Shown here: positions 7,392 through 40,796 of the stretch, one piece after another
Numbering within the stretch: the first letter of the stretch is position 1
How the letters are laid out: every line of letters begins with the position of its first letter
Source of the DNA: an uncultured Neglectibacter sp.
Lineage (GTDB): Bacteria > Bacillota > Clostridia > Oscillospirales > Acutalibacteraceae
Assembly (NCBI GenBank): GCA_904374805.1
Contig: CAJFEW010000010.1
Location: 1-52,244 of the forward strand
Direction: 5' to 3'
Length of the DNA: 52,244 nt
Made by a program: the position numbers and the translations under genes
The notes under the pieces: model-generated
Told to the model about the DNA's origin: nothing
The model's database searches: none
What the model saw: only the letters and a program-made list of their open reading frames with translations

Positions 7392-7498
7392 AATTGTCAA
7401 AATAAATGCCTCTCCTTGTGACACAGTAAAACGGGGCAGAAATTTTGCAAGCTCCGCGTGAAATTTCAAATCCGCCCCGGAAAGGGATGAAAATTTCC

Positions 7499-8653
7499 AT
7501 GAAGCCTTTTTGGAAACAGGGAAACAAGCGCCGGCTGCTCCGCGCTCTGCGCCTGTTCACCGTCAGTGTGGGAACCACCGCTGTCTGCATGCTGCTTTCT
7601 CTCAGCTTTTTAAAGCTGGACAGCCCTCCCACCGCTCTGGAAGCTTCTGTGTTCAACGGGGGAAAAGAATTTTCCGCCCAGAAAGAGGAGAGCGCTCCGG
7701 CTGCCGCCAGCACCGCAAGCCCTGGGGAAGTGATTCCCTTGGGCACCGTTTTCGGCATTAAACTTTTCACAGACGGGGTCATTGTGGCCTCCCTCTCAGA
7801 CATTTACACCGAAACGGGCGTGTGCTGCCCGGCGGCGGAGGCCGGCATTGAGCCGGGCGACTATTTGCTGCAGGCCAACGGCCAGGACATTCCCGACAAC
7901 ACCGCCCTGGCCCGTGCCATTGGCCAAAGCGGCGGGGAGCCTATCACTTTCCAGGTGCGCAGGGAACAAGAGATTTTCGAAACCCAGGTCACGCCGGTTT
8001 TCGGGGAAGGTTCCTTTAAAACCGGTATGTGGGTTCGGGACAGCGCCGCTGGAATTGGGACCCTCACCTTCTATGACCCGGCCTCCGGCCTTTTTGCCGG
8101 CTTGGGCCACGGCATTTGCGATATGGACACCAGCGGCGTGATGGCCCTGAAATCCGGCGAGCCCGCGCCCATCACCCTCAGCGGCATTGTAAAGGGAGAG
8201 GAAAACAGCCCCGGCCAGCTGCGGGGCTATTTCTCCTCGGACCAGCCGCTGGGCAGCCTCCTGCAAAATAAGGACACCGGTGTGTACGGCACTTTGGATA
8301 ACCCACCGGAAGGAGAAACGGTGGAGATCCTCCCCCGGGAGGAAATCCACTGCGGCCCTGTGCAGCTGTTGGTCACGTTGGATGAAAGCGGTCCGCAGCC
8401 CTACGACGCCGAAATCCTACAAATTCTAGACCTAGAGCAAAAGACAAAAAACCTGGTGGTCCAAGTGACGGACCCCAGGCTTTTGCAGGCCACAGGCGGC
8501 ATTGTACAGGGCATGAGCGGCTGTCCCCTTTTGCAGGATGGAAAGCTGGCAGGAGCGGTCACCCATGTCTTTACAGAAGACCCCACAACTGGATATGGTA
8601 TCTGTGCCCAAACCATGTGGGAGGAAAGCCAAATATGTAGTGTGTCGAAGTAG
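7499..8653 (+). CDS. spoIVB: SpoIVB serine peptidase (S55), sigma-K checkpoint protease
   Basis: SpoIVB is made in the forespore, crosses into the intermembrane space and triggers processing of pro-sigma-K. This 384-residue protein has a single N-terminal membrane anchor (about residues 13-35), a PDZ domain (about 95-165, with the EAGIEPGDYLL core), and an S55 peptidase domain with AGLGHGI (catalytic His) and GMSGCP (catalytic Ser340) followed by GAVTHVFTEDPTTGYG. Most family members read GMSGSP; here the residue after the Gly is Cys, while the catalytic Ser is kept. ATG7499 has GGAAAGGG upstream; ATG7487 is an alternative. It lies directly before spo0A, the conserved order in spore-forming Firmicutes. 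Confidence 0.92.
   Translation: MKPFWKQGNKRRLLRALRLFTVSVGTTAVCMLLSLSFLKLDSPPTALEASVFNGGKEFSAQKEESAPAAASTASPGEVIPLGTVFGIKLFTDGVIVASLSDIYTETGVCCPAAEAGIEPGDYLLQANGQDIPDNTALARAIGQSGGEPITFQVRREQEIFETQVTPVFGEGSFKTGMWVRDSAAGIGTLTFYDPASGLFAGLGHGICDMDTSGVMALKSGEPAPITLSGIVKGEENSPGQLRGYFSSDQPLGSLLQNKDTGVYGTLDNPPEGETVEILPREEIHCGPVQLLVTLDESGPQPYDAEILQILDLEQKTKNLVVQVTDPRLLQATGGIVQGMSGCPLLQDGKLAGAVTHVFTEDPTTGYGICAQTMWEESQICSVSK
8643..8649 (+). promoter_or_regulatory. 0A box overlapping the spoIVB stop codon
   Basis: TGTCGAA is a perfect core Spo0A-binding site. It lies about 95 bases before the spo0A -35 and overlaps the last codons of spoIVB (TCG AAG TAG), so it may be coincidence. A near match, TTTGTCGGAA on the minus strand at 8722-8731, lies immediately upstream of the spo0A -35. 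Confidence 0.4.
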
Positions 8654-8737
8654 CTCGAAGGGCAAAAAACCCCGGTCTTAAGCCATTTTTCGCCGTTTTT
8701 CGGCAAGATAATTTTCCAGATTTTTCCGACAAACCAC

Positions 8738-8766
8738 TTGCCATAAGTATGATCTTATGGTAAAAT
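8738..8766 (+). promoter_or_regulatory. Sigma-A type promoter of spo0A
   Basis: TTGCCA, a 17-base spacer and TAAAAT lie 35 bases before the spo0A start codon, giving a short leader with the RBS AGGAGG. A near-consensus 0A box (minus strand 8722-8731) directly abuts the -35, a position suitable for Spo0A control of its own gene. Confidence 0.65.
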
Positions 8767-8800: not shown

Positions 8801-9565
8801 ATGGAAAAAGAAAGTACGATAATTATTAGTTCGGAAGACGGCGAATGGGACCGGGAACCGATCCAGAAATTATCCCAACGGGGGGTGAAAGTCCTCTTTC
8901 TAAAGCGGGATAGCAGCCTGCTTTTGGAAAAAATTCGAGAAGAACGCCCCCAGCTGGTCATGATGGAATTTCTCATGCCCGGCCTCGACGCCGTGGGAGT
9001 GATCCACGCGGTGAACCAAGACGCCTCCGTGGATAACCCCCTATACATAATCACCGCCTCTTATACCAACCCTGTCATCGAGCGGGAAATCGCCTCTGCC
9101 GGCGCAGCGTATTTCGCCCTAACCCCCTATGATCAAAACGAAATGGCTGACCGGGTGCTTTCTCTGCTCTCCATGCGGGGAAAGCACTTTGACTCGGAGC
9201 CCGCCAGCGCCAGCCTGCGCATGCAGGTTACGGAAATCCTCCACCAAATTGGCGTGCCTGCTCACATCAAGGGATATCACTACCTGAGGGACTCCATCCT
9301 CATGGCTGTGGAAGATCCTGAACTGATCAACGCCGTGACCAAACAGCTGTATCCCAGCGTGGCAAAACGCTACAACACCACCAGTTCCCGGGTGGAGCGG
9401 GCCATACGCCATGCCATTGAAGTGGCCTGGGACCGGGGAGACGTGGATGTGCTGAACTCCTACTTCGGCTACACCATTCACAACACCCGGGGAAAACCCA
9501 CCAACAGCGAATTCATCGCCATGATCTCGGATAAACTCTGTCTGCAGATGGCCAGCGCCTCCTGA
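8801..9565 (+). CDS. spo0A: Spo0A, sporulation master regulator, with degenerate receiver domain
   Basis: Response regulator that commits Clostridia and Bacilli to sporulation; 254 residues. The C-terminal DNA-binding domain (about 135-254) is highly conserved, including the recognition helix [16 protein letters not shown]. The receiver (1-120) is not: the phosphoacceptor position, in [14 protein letters not shown], is Glu56 instead of Asp; the essential Lys of the LKPFD motif is Thr108 (ALTPYD); and the acidic pair DD of the first strand is Ser-Glu (residues 11-12). Thr85 is kept. The protein therefore probably cannot be phosphorylated in the usual way; Glu at the acceptor site could mimic phosphate. 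RBS AGGAGG precedes ATG8801. Identity is secure by DNA-binding domain and by spoIVB synteny. Confidence 0.95.
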
Positions 9566-9599
9566 CAAGCTAAGGATACTATAAAACCCCTTACTAATT

Positions 9600-9606
9600 T
9601 GTCGAA
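9600..9606 (+). promoter_or_regulatory. 0A box downstream of spo0A
   Basis: TTTGTCGAAA (9598-9607) contains the perfect TGTCGAA core in an AT-rich intergenic sequence 34 bases after the spo0A stop. No gene start lies immediately to the right on the plus strand; the next feature is a hairpin at 9667. It may control a short transcript or be incidental. Confidence 0.4.
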
Positions 9607-9666
9607 ATATGAAGGATCCTCCCATTTTCTTGTAAAAAAATTGTGAACGGGCGCAATATATAGTAG

Positions 9667-9698
9667 AACTCCGGCGGATGCCATCATCCGCCGGAGTT
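9667..9698. terminator. Perfect 14-bp hairpin between spo0A and the CAT-like gene
   Basis: AACTCCGGCGGATG and CATCCGCCGGAGTT pair fully around a CCAT loop. It stands between two convergent genes, so it probably ends both transcripts, although the T run is short on the plus strand (TTTCGTCT family tail). Confidence 0.65.
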
Positions 9699-9718: not shown

Positions 9719-10369
9719 CTACATATTCCCTTCTGCGCCGTACAACTCCCGGTCCAGCAGCTGCTGCAGCTCTTCCACAAACCTGCAAACGTGGAACCCG
9801 TCGCACACCCCGTGGTGCACCTGTACGGCCAGCGGCAGCAACCATTTACCCTGAACCTCGTGTACCTTCCCCATGGTAAAAATCGGCAACAAATGCCGTT
9901 CTCCCCGGGGCAGGTCCAGATGAAACCCTGTAAAAGTCTGCCAGGGAATCATGGAAATGTCGCACAGGTTTTCCGGAGGATGAGGCTTTCCCCAAAACCC
10001 TTCCCTGGCGCCGTACAGCCGCAAGTCCTCCTGGTACCGGGCGCAAAACTCCCGGTAATCTGGGGAAAACTGGGTCCAAAGGCAGGAAAAAGTCTCTGTC
10101 TCCGGATGGAACACCGTGTAGCAGGGGGAAATTTCCTCAAACCATCCCAGCCTGCCTTCCCCATCAAAGGCCATGCGAAATTCCCGATGCCGGTTGGCCA
10201 CAGCGCACAGCCCATACAACAGGGCGGGATACAGCCGCTCCCCCCTCTTCTTCAGCTGTGTCACGTCCACATCCACACACATGCTGTAAAAGCAGGGGAC
10301 CTGGGAGGTATAGTGAGCAAAGTGCTCCCGCCGGTTCCAAGTCTGCAGGTCCATCTCATGGAAAATCAT
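9719..10369 (-). CDS. Chloramphenicol acetyltransferase-like (CatA family) acyltransferase
   Basis: Trimeric acetyl-CoA dependent O-acetyltransferase fold; 216 residues, the normal CatA length. The catalytic HHGVCDG motif is intact near residue 190 (VQVHHGVCDGFHVCRF), with HF at the N-terminus (RREHFAHY) and the usual Tyr/Phe-rich substrate region. If active on chloramphenicol it would inactivate the drug by 3-O-acetylation, but chromosomal family members can act on other substrates. ATG10369 is preferred: AAAGGAG lies 11 bases upstream, whereas the GTG at 10381 overlaps it. It is the last of three minus-strand genes (ROK regulator, MFS transporter, this enzyme), 40 bases after the transporter, so it is likely co-transcribed with them. 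Confidence 0.85.
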   Translation of the reverse strand: MIFHEMDLQTWNRREHFAHYTSQVPCFYSMCVDVDVTQLKKRGERLYPALLYGLCAVANRHREFRMAFDGEGRLGWFEEISPCYTVFHPETETFSCLWTQFSPDYREFCARYQEDLRLYGAREGFWGKPHPPENLCDISMIPWQTFTGFHLDLPRGERHLLPIFTMGKVHEVQGKWLLPLAVQVHHGVCDGFHVCRFVEELQQLLDRELYGAEGNM

Positions 10370-10409
10370 CCCACACCACACTCCTTTACGGGGTACAAAA
10401 CTCTGTTCT

Positions 10410-39341: not shown

Positions 39342-40796
39342 TCACCGGTCCTGGCTGCCGGGCATGTCCTGCACCTTGGCGTCCCAGCGGGAAAGCCGCC
39401 GCCAGCCGGCCCGGAAGAACACGTCCCGCAGCACCAGCCTTCCCCGGAAGGGGGAGACCGGGGACAGCAAGGGCACCCCAAAGCTCTCCGCCCCGCACAG
39501 GTCTAAGAGCAAAAACACCAGGCCGATCATCACGCCCCACATGCCCAGGAAGTTGCCCACCAAGAGAAATCCCAGGCGCAGCAGCGCCAAAGGTTCGTAC
39601 AGCCGGGGCACCGCGTAGCCTGCAATGGCAGTCAGGGCCACCACCAGCAGGGAGGGCGCGCTCACCAGCCCCGCCGCCACTGCCGTGTCCCCCAGCACCA
39701 GCCCGCCCACAATGCTCACAGTGGCGGACAGGGACCGGGGCGCCCGGAGCCCCGCCTCCCGCAGCACCTCATAGAGGAAAAACAAGGTCAGGGTTTCGAA
39801 CATCACCGGGAACGGCGTTTTGGCCTGGGCCCCCGCCACGGTCAGCAGCAGGCTTTCCGGAAGCAGCTCCGGGTGGTGGGTCACAATGGCCACGTAGAGT
39901 CCCGGCAGAAAGGAGCTGAGAAAAAAGGCGGCCATCTTCAGCCAGCGGATAAAGGTGCCGTAGAAAGGCCGGGTCAAATAGTCGTCCAAGGTTTGGAAGT
40001 TCTCCACAAAGAGAAAGGGCAGCACAAGAACGCTGGGGGTGCCCTCCACCAGCAGGGCCACCCGGCCCTCCTCAATTTTTCCACAGACCACGTCGGGGCG
40101 CTCGGTGAGCCCCACCCCGGAGAACACCCGGCCCCGCTCCAAAAAGCCCGTGAGATACCCTGCCCCCAACACGGTCTGCAGGGAGCAGTCCTCCAGCTTT
40201 TGCCGCACCTGGCGCAAGATTTTCTCCGAAGCCACCCCCTCTATATAACAGAGCACCAGAGGCGTGTGGCTTTGGGCGCCCACTTGCAGCATTTCAAACT
40301 TAAGGGACGTGTTTTTCATCCGGCGGCGGATCATGGCCATGTTCAGCTGGTTGGACTCTGTAAAACCGTCCTTGGCCCCCCGCTGCATCACCTCGTTTTG
40401 CGGCTCCTGGGGCCCCCGGTAGGCAAACCCCTGCACGCCGAACGCTAAAGCGTCGTCCACGCCGTCCAGCAAAAGCACGGCAAAGCCGCTCATAAGCAGC
40501 TGCAGCAGGGCGTCCATCCTAGCTTCGTGCTTCAAATCCGCCGCGCTGAGCACCCGGCGCTCAATGAAAGCCAGCTGCTTCTCCGGCTCTGAGGGATACG
40601 ACCGCTCCCGCAGCAGGGGCTCCAGCACACTGAGGGTGATCACCTCCTTGTTCACCAAGCCGTCCACCGCCAACAAAGCCGCAGCACGCCCGCCCAGCTC
40701 CACCCGGCGAAGGATCAAGTCCATGGCTTTTACAAACCTCGCCTGAAAAAAAGCCAGGTTGCCCGCCAAATCCTTCGAAAGCTTTTGTTGCTCCAT
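39342..40796 (-). CDS. Spore germination protein, GerA family
   Basis: A subunit of a germinant receptor, 484 residues. N-terminal cytoplasmic domain (about 1-240) with LLLDGVDDALAFGVQGFAYRGPQEPQNEVMQRGAKDGFTESNQLNMAMIRRR, the central GerA signature, given here in two parts: the substrate loop and the RGAKDGFTES block near residue 128. About five C-terminal membrane segments follow. It forms the ion-conducting oligomer triggered by germinants. First gene of gerA-gerB-gerC, the standard order; the presence of all three intact subunits implies working spores. A forespore (sigma-G) promoter is expected but no clear one was seen. Confidence 0.94.
   Translation of the reverse strand: MEQQKLSKDLAGNLAFFQARFVKAMDLILRRVELGGRAAALLAVDGLVNKEVITLSVLEPLLRERSYPSEPEKQLAFIERRVLSAADLKHEARMDALLQLLMSGFAVLLLDGVDDALAFGVQGFAYRGPQEPQNEVMQRGAKDGFTESNQLNMAMIRRRMKNTSLKFEMLQVGAQSHTPLVLCYIEGVASEKILRQVRQKLEDCSLQTVLGAGYLTGFLERGRVFSGVGLTERPDVVCGKIEEGRVALLVEGTPSVLVLPFLFVENFQTLDDYLTRPFYGTFIRWLKMAAFFLSSFLPGLYVAIVTHHPELLPESLLLTVAGAQAKTPFPVMFETLTLFFLYEVLREAGLRAPRSLSATVSIVGGLVLGDTAVAAGLVSAPSLLVVALTAIAGYAVPRLYEPLALLRLGFLLVGNFLGMWGVMIGLVFLLLDLCGAESFGVPLLSPVSPFRGRLVLRDVFFRAGWRRLSRWDAKVQDMPGSQDR

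Follow-up and report, generated by a model that had tools for sequence, protein, structure and literature searches.

In endospore-forming bacteria, the response regulator Spo0A is described as switched on through a conserved Asp in every endospore former (a passage of PMC11210211) and as remarkably conserved (part of PMC6136694), and the portion of PMC3416734 that treats the protein presents a phosphorylated or conserved Spo0A as general. Sporulation is generally held to be gated by phosphorylation at this single residue. Once freed of the restraint imposed by the receiver, the isolated DNA-binding domain of Spo0A binds without phosphorylation (excerpted text of PMC3485338). Receiver domains that lack at least one of five catalytic residues are defined as pseudo-receivers in PMC12632262; Spo0A is not named in that paper (0 occurrences), and the passage of PMC4395418 that does name Spo0A concerns substituted proteins. 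Among the matches listed from the open-access literature, there was no report of a natural pseudo-receiver Spo0A or of a phosphorylation-independent one. A natural pseudo-receiver Spo0A is likewise not described in the available portions of PMC11210211, PMC6136694, PMC12632262, PMC4395418, PMC3416734, PMC12090719 and PMC11536998.

The locus considered here lies in a window, meaning the whole 52,244-nucleotide stretch of DNA that was analysed, from an uncultured Neglectibacter sp.; among its named relatives, those labelled Neglecta sp. and Acutalibacter sp. are the nearest. Its features are collected in Table 1. The spo0A gene lies directly behind spoIVB, which is presumably its neighbor in B. 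subtilis as well. The product passes the 200-bit cut-off of the Spo0A orthologue model and contains a clear Spo0A DNA-binding domain, and the DNA-binding half is thus canonical, as an earlier sequence-only reading of the window had stated. The receiver scores 25 bits with the Response_reg model, below the Pfam cut-off of 30.2. That reading had also named a second, canonical Spo0A as a case that would speak against it; the Spo0A_C model matches only once in the genome (2,274,541 bases in 100 contigs, 95.94% complete, so that about 4% was unseen by this search). Convergent to spo0A is a gene of the chloramphenicol-acetyltransferase family (window 9719-10381, minus strand; PF00302, 226.6 bits).

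Table 1. Features of the window that bear on spo0A and sporulation
Feature	Position	Strand	Basis
spoIVB, protease gene adjoining spo0A	7445..8653	+	Peptidase_S55 240.4 bits; TIGR02860 305.3 bits (cut-off 305.25)
0A-box-like site TTTGTCGGA, adjoining the spo0A promoter on its upstream side	8725..8733	-	not shared by aligned neighbors
Putative sigma-A-type promoter of spo0A, TTGCCA-N17-TAAAAT	8738..8766	+	consensus match
spo0A coding sequence, 254 aa	8801..9565	+	TIGR02875 (spore_0_A) 242.2 bits; Spo0A_C (PF08769) 159.7 bits; sole Spo0A_C match of the genome
Pseudo-receiver domain, residues 1-125	8801..9175	+	Response_reg below cut-off; AlphaFold2 (beta-alpha)5 order; Foldseek 1qmp, 5wq0
S11-E12 codons at the metal-binding Asp pair position (D10-D11 of B. 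subtilis)	8831..8836	+	170-locus alignment
Glu56 codon GAA at the phospho-acceptor Asp position	8966..8968	+	sequence, alignment
Ala86 codon, between T85 and S87, aligned with the conserved Ser/Thr	9056..9058	+	alignment to relatives; last beta4 residue in the model
Thr108 codon at the conserved Lys position	9122..9124	+	sequence, alignment
Spo0A_C DNA-binding domain, residues 143-246	9227..9538	+	PF08769 7.7e-48; 57-62% identity to 1lq1/1fc3 chains
Candidate spoIIG-type promoter antisense into spo0A, TTCGACA-N21-TATCCT	9573..9606	-	inferred; weak -10, 4 of 6
0A box TTTGTCGAA, 32 bases past the spo0A stop codon	9598..9606	+	TGTCGAA in 12/12 close relatives
G+C-rich inverted repeat after the conserved block, terminator-like	9669..9696	.	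sequence
GerA-family spore germination gene	39342..40796	-	PF03323 502.7 bits

The catalytic pocket of a receiver comprises two acidic residues, an acceptor Asp, a Ser or Thr, and a Lys, which we take to be D10, D11, D56, T86 and K108 in B. subtilis numbering. In an alignment of 170 loci, the window protein carries S, E, E, A and T at these positions, and only the second acidic position (E for D11) is still acidic. Glu56, Thr108 and Ser-Glu at the Asp pair had all been pointed out in the earlier reading, which counted three of the five residues as changed. The changes hold, but the count is too low: relatives align Ala86 with the conserved Ser/Thr, a position at which the sister proteins L010 and L031 have Ser, and four of the five catalytic positions are thus altered. 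With its acceptor Asp replaced by Glu56, the domain belongs with the Asp-less receivers, and with several of the five residues missing and the fold predicted to be kept, it falls within the pseudo-receiver definition of PMC12632262. A sequencing error at the changed codons, which the same reading had allowed for, is rejected because the changes are common to other assemblies; Glu56, for example, is also found in L004, L019/L037, L032, L035 and L119. Judged by these residues, phosphate uptake at position 56 of the window protein is very unlikely.

The loss is not confined to the window protein. The aligned loci, the window's included, were the 80 nearest to the window protein in named genomes together with 90 from the family, the latter drawn with a bias to high-scoring DNA-binding domains; because loci were picked by nearness or high score, the fractions that follow are not estimates of prevalence. 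Lys or Arg is missing from position 108 in 57 of the 170 loci, and Asp56 is missing in 31. Among the 90 family-drawn loci, 27 are without Lys/Arg at 108, 24 of them inside a single clade. This clade, listed by hand from a FastTree phylogeny built without the five pocket columns, contains 43 distinct Spo0A proteins, the window protein among them, or 53 loci when near-identical copies are included; L138, which has Arg at 108 and occupies a long branch inside the 44-row fork of that tree, was counted with the non-clade rows. None of the 53 clade loci has Lys or Arg at position 108 (S, Q, A, T, M, Y, C, L, E or I is found instead), compared with 82 of the 86 non-redundant rows outside the clade, where the four exceptions are L028, L100, L133 and L168. 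At position 56, the 31 non-redundant clade rows (<85% identity) carry Asp in 16, Glu in nine, Pro in three, Asn in two and Ser in one, against Asp in 83, Glu in two and Asn in one of the rows outside; counted by locus, 31 of the 53 clade members still have Asp56. The combination of Asp56, Ser/Thr86 and Lys108 with D, E or N at position 11 occurs in 0/31 clade rows versus 67/86 outside.

The receiver as a whole is no more variable in the clade (mean entropy 1.73 versus 2.03 bits outside). When its 121 positions are ranked by the rise in entropy within the clade, 108 and 56 come top, position 10 fifth and position 86 eighth; the clade was picked out by the missing Lys, and the first rank of 108 is therefore partly circular, that of 56 less so. 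In other families of the class, 69 loci were read from among the best-scoring of 241 genomes with a match, and the 68 with a full receiver have Lys (66) or Arg (2) at 108, with Asp56 in 67. Five further genomes, which lie outside the trees and were placed by the genus code of clade member L115 (L265-L269: G310, G173, G054, G355 and G396), widen the range of residues at position 56. Pro is found in the single-contig genomes G310 and G396 and in the two-contig genome G355, and Trp in the single-contig genomes G173 and G054; G310, G396 and G173 have one Spo0A_C match each, and G054 has two, Trp being the residue of the copy read. Mapping the Glu and Thr substitutions across relatives, a check that the earlier reading had proposed, thus reveals an absence of Lys throughout the clade and a varied position 56. 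From this distribution, aspartyl phosphorylation seems to have been abandoned clade-wide.

Glu56 is also found outside the clade with Lys kept, in L144. A separate group of seven loci with titles of Ruminococcus or Clostridiales (L065, L067, L070, L071, L076, L082 and L086) combines Glu56 with retained Lys and Ser, with position 11 being Asp in five and Asn in two. On its residues, this group is an independent, cleaner case of Asp-to-Glu replacement.

Support for the clade fork is 80 in the FastTree phylogeny; in a second tree, likewise built without the pocket columns and excluding L138, L118, L133, L127 and L139, the branch that sets the clade apart has an SH-aLRT of 85. On this second tree, at least four changes are needed at position 108, with Lys and Arg treated as one state, and at least 12 at position 56. 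L010 (from the same-genus genome G334) and L031, the closest relative of the window Spo0A at 89% identity, already lack both the Lys and the first acidic residue but have kept Asp56 and Ser86. Since the closest relatives keep Asp56 without the Lys, the Lys went first and the acceptor drifted later. Purifying selection remains on these receivers, with dN/dS of 0.08-0.22 between L001, L010 and L031; five Lys-keeping close pairs gave 0.02-0.05, by comparison with which the genus pairs are relaxed, though far from neutral.

The most coherent account of these patterns is that the window protein is the orthologous Spo0A of an Acutalibacter-like bacterium, its receiver having turned into a pseudo-receiver. 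The phosphate switch was probably given up in the common ancestor of one clade within the family. The switch Lys would have been lost first, and once in the clade, with the other pocket residues, including the acceptor Asp, drifting separately by lineage. With respect to position 56, the window Spo0A quite probably acts independently of phosphate.

AlphaFold2 predicts that the window protein retains the full receiver fold in (beta-alpha)5 order (mean pLDDT 85.2; block means as far as residue 120 are 79-95). In the model, strand beta3 ends with Glu56 and strand beta4 with Ala86; the pTM of 0.51 makes the placing of the two Spo0A domains in the model unreliable. Foldseek matches the model to the Spo0A receivers 1qmp and 5wq0 and to Spo0A DNA-binding domains. 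Across the 31 clade rows, there is little variation on the alpha4-beta5-alpha5 side (E94 in 31, R95 in 29, E96 in 28, Y104 in 29 and R118 in 29). Three of these residues are about as constant in the 86 rows outside (E94 in 78, E96 in 74 and Y104 in 80), and two are more so inside the clade than outside, namely R95 (29/31 versus 44/86) and R118 (29/31 versus 51/86), as are E14 (29/31 versus 54/86) and P91 (30/31 versus 55/86). The receiver would most likely serve as a folded dimerization and docking module with a conserved alpha4-beta5-alpha5 side, and this side may form a standing dimer.

Some of these residues also speak for the main rival account, in which the receiver senses a bound protein or small molecule in place of kinase input, as other atypical response regulators do. 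A receiver with a predicted fold and continuing selection on it, with R95, R118, E14 and P91 more constant in the clade, would suit such a role. However, no candidate partner or ligand turned up, the pocket differs among clade members, and the higher constancy could simply follow from the clade being phylogenetically narrower, as seen in its lower mean entropy. Sensing is a possible role for this receiver, if a somewhat doubtful one.

Under phosphate-independent action, Spo0A would still start sporulation, but without aspartyl phosphate; its targets and the sporulation genes are kept. SpoIIGA and SpoIVA were found in 15 of the 15 genomes searched, ten of which belong to the clade. A YGACA-N21/22-TATAAT-like promoter lies upstream of spoIIGA in all 14 genomes in which the start of the gene was placed (G334 is not among these), including nine Lys-less genomes of the clade. 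Among the genomes surveyed, G103 was classed as Lys-less via its genus-mate L154 rather than by its own Spo0A. The -10 element is perfect in ten genomes and matches at 5 of 6 bases in four, whereas only 0-2% of the 200 shuffles made for each genome gave a match of 5/6 or better. The wide spacing of 21-22 bases is presumably that of the Spo0A-activated spoIIG promoter of B. subtilis. In the window genome, the promoter reads CGACA-N21-TATAAT, and the exact pattern CGACA-N21/22-TATAMT occurs once in 2.27 Mb; a reversed control pattern gave two matches, so it is the place of the pattern, not its count, that stands above chance. The neighboring spoIVB and ger genes, which had been described as looking intact, both pass their models. 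The window genome also has the gene order spoIIAA-spoIIAB-sigF, with a SpoIIAB that passes its model (182.6 bits, cut-off 135). SpoIIAA (87.8 bits, cut-off 114.75) and SigF (205.8 bits, cut-off 321.45) are best matches that remain below their cut-offs (L172, G000 contig C47:2000-5500), and on sequence the first sporulation sigma factor of the window genome looks divergent too.

These last scores could also mean that sporulation itself is being lost, with Spo0A kept for other regulation and its receiver decaying. Relaxed selection on the receiver is in keeping with such decay (median dN/dS over wider pairs 0.37 for 118 Lys-less versus 0.26 for 95 Lys-keeping pairs, with dS often near saturation), as are the SpoIIAA and SigF scores below equivalog cut-offs and the genus Caproiciproducens, two species of which fall inside the clade and whose strains carry sporulation genes with no spores observed (according to part of PMC7873966). 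Yet SpoIIAB, SpoIIGA, SpoIVA, SpoIVB and GerA all pass cut-offs in the window genome and the spoIIG promoter is kept. Moreover, Clostridium sporosphaeroides DSM 1294, whose Spo0A (L056) belongs to the clade with Lys replaced by Ile and Asp56 kept, is tabulated as endospore-forming (PMC4148971, in its Table 2). Loss of sporulation is thus quite unlikely. The loss of receiver residues with spore genes kept makes it appear that the entry into sporulation has been rewired, as the sequence-only reading had supposed.

One mechanism raised in that reading, a Glu56 that mimics phosphate and keeps Spo0A always active, fares less well. Sporulation would in that event be controlled downstream or by expression. 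Glu is indeed the commonest change in the clade (9/15 non-Asp non-redundant rows) and is the commonest substitution in Asp-less receivers at large, at 26%, in a passage of PMC4395418, but the same passage holds that Asp to Glu alone is often insufficient and names Spo0A. In addition, the phosphate-reading Lys is gone, the sister protein at 89% identity keeps Asp, and Asn, Pro and Ser also occur in clade members without Lys, with Trp in a single-contig genome of the L115 genus. Pro and Trp provide neither an acceptor nor phosphate mimicry, which argues against Glu56 as a selected phosphomimic. Given that loss of the Lys preceded that of the Asp, that the closest relatives still have Asp, and that Asn, Pro, Ser or, by genus assignment, Trp is found at position 56 elsewhere in the clade, Glu looks like one outcome of drift, and its selection as a mimic is decidedly unlikely. 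Both phosphate mimicry and sensing are themselves other forms of phosphate-independent action, and the likelihoods given here overlap.

A near lack of orphan HisKA kinases does not explain the lost site. The window genome encodes 10 HisKA kinases, of which nine have a response regulator no more than 3.5 kb away and the tenth is truncated at the end of its contig. That tenth kinase is the only unpaired one among 59 in seven Lys-less genomes of the clade. Five Lys-keeping relatives in which both Lys and Asp56 are kept (G007, G293, G100, G020 and G116) likewise have one unpaired kinase among 41, on contig C23 of G100 about 2.6 kb from the contig end; so close to the end, it may or may not be a true orphan. 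The survey of relatives covered the HisKA class, and non-HisKA kinases were covered through the HATPase_c list of the window genome. An absence of orphan kinases, which the earlier reading had proposed to look for, therefore does not separate the two groups; this near lack is common to both and was ruled out as a discriminator. Continued phosphorylation of the receiver by a paired or a Ser/Thr kinase, at Glu56, D13 or Ser/Thr side chains, is highly improbable, for although E12 lies at and D13 just after the Asp-pair position, the kinases of the window genome could cross-talk, and Glu phosphorylation is said to be possible (a passage of PMC4395418), the pocket Lys, the Ser/Thr and one acidic residue are missing and the HisKA kinases are paired as described.

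Two other response regulators of the genome are of note. One, adjacent to a HisKA kinase, is interrupted by a TAG stop codon as assembled (G000 contig C29:13923-14252). The second, which is the only sub-threshold response regulator of the genome apart from Spo0A, is an ANTAR protein (L178, G000 contig C63:3000-6500; PF03861 50.9 bits, Response_reg 21.3 bits) that overlaps the end of a glutamine-synthetase gene, and no HisKA kinase was found on its contig.

If Spo0A acts without phosphate, its trigger would be the amount of the protein, with a bound protein or ligand as the main rival input; whether amount rather than a partner is the input is an evenly balanced question. In 12 aligned regions upstream of spo0A, the promoter elements recur, with TTGC in all 12 and TAARAT in 11 (TAAACT in L035), and the site is the best one of a scoring scan in seven. 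Autoregulation via upstream 0A boxes was set aside as a difference between groups, such boxes being present at 20/57 Lys-less versus 40/112 Lys-keeping loci.

Downstream of spo0A, 14 loci were compared, of which L111 and L112 offered too little sequence, leaving the 12 close relatives of Table 1. The 0A box opens a noncoding block of about 75 bases that is conserved in part (window 9573-9672), with counterparts at the corresponding place in L004, L010, L019, L031-L036, L038 and L119. On the opposite strand, the candidate spoIIG-type promoter faces back into spo0A, and its -10 element is a perfect TATAAT (6 of 6) in L019, L036 and L038. Across the 12 relatives, which are not independent of each other, a -10-like hexamer placed 21 bases from TTCGACA matches at a mean of 4.58 of 6 bases, versus at most 3.17 at 34 other distances (5 to 39). 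A -10 match of 5/6 or better is found in 6/12 close relatives versus 1/26 other clade loci, the single positive (L037) being a duplicate of L019, and 0/73 loci outside. These motifs suggest that, in the close relatives, a backward-facing promoter of the Spo0A type may drive antisense transcription through spo0A, and in the window genus and its nearest relatives, such transcription could limit the amount of Spo0A. A small RNA on the plus strand downstream of spo0A was set aside, as the sequence past the conserved block is not conserved. Rfam gave no match on the window, and in a phrase search for a published antisense RNA of spo0A, the one matching paper apparently concerns silencing with antisense oligonucleotides.

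Joined into one scheme, these elements would have the clade enter sporulation without phosphotransfer, with Spo0A active as made, its concentration as the signal, and, in the window genus and nearest relatives, an antisense self-limiting loop in place of kinases and phosphatases. As a whole this scheme is speculative and rather unlikely. Several observations weigh against phosphate-independent action itself. Clostridium sporosphaeroides, the sole named endospore former found in the clade, keeps Asp56, and the unobserved spores of Caproiciproducens, the low SpoIIAA and SigF scores and the moderate support of the clade fork (80 and 85) count on the same side. As work on CheY indicates, receivers without the Lys can sometimes still take phosphate. 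Moreover, because 16 of the 31 rows retain Asp56 and the commonest replacement is the conservative Glu, a degree of constraint, or a residual reaction, may persist. For the window organism, no data on expression, binding or spores were found.

With the gate dropped but the spore genes, the target promoter of Spo0A, its DNA-binding domain and a predicted receiver fold all retained, the clade would offer a natural experiment on the sporulation decision without a phosphorelay or sporulation kinases. It would also display, in steps, the conversion of a response regulator into a pseudo-receiver, with the Lys lost first and the acceptor Asp later. As the closest relative is, by its record, a chicken-associated metagenome genome, these changes may bear on how gut spore formers spread between hosts.

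Compared with known systems, the window protein resembles the Spo0A of Bacillus subtilis and the Clostridia (TIGR02875) in its domain order, its DNA-binding domain (57-62% identical) and the 21-22 base spacing of the spoIIG promoter, but differs from it in four of the five catalytic positions of the receiver. It shares with pseudo-receivers and Asp-less receivers such as RitR and ChxR a fold that is kept (here by prediction) and the loss of the acceptor or other catalytic residues; unlike in those proteins, the loss affects the master regulator of sporulation, and does so across a whole clade. Like the orphan-kinase-driven Spo0A of the Clostridia, it belongs to a setting without a described phosphorelay, none being described for the Ruminococcaceae in the pertinent part of PMC11210211. 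However, unlike that system, the window genome has no unpaired HisKA kinase other than the one at a contig end, and the acceptor site has been lost from its Spo0A.
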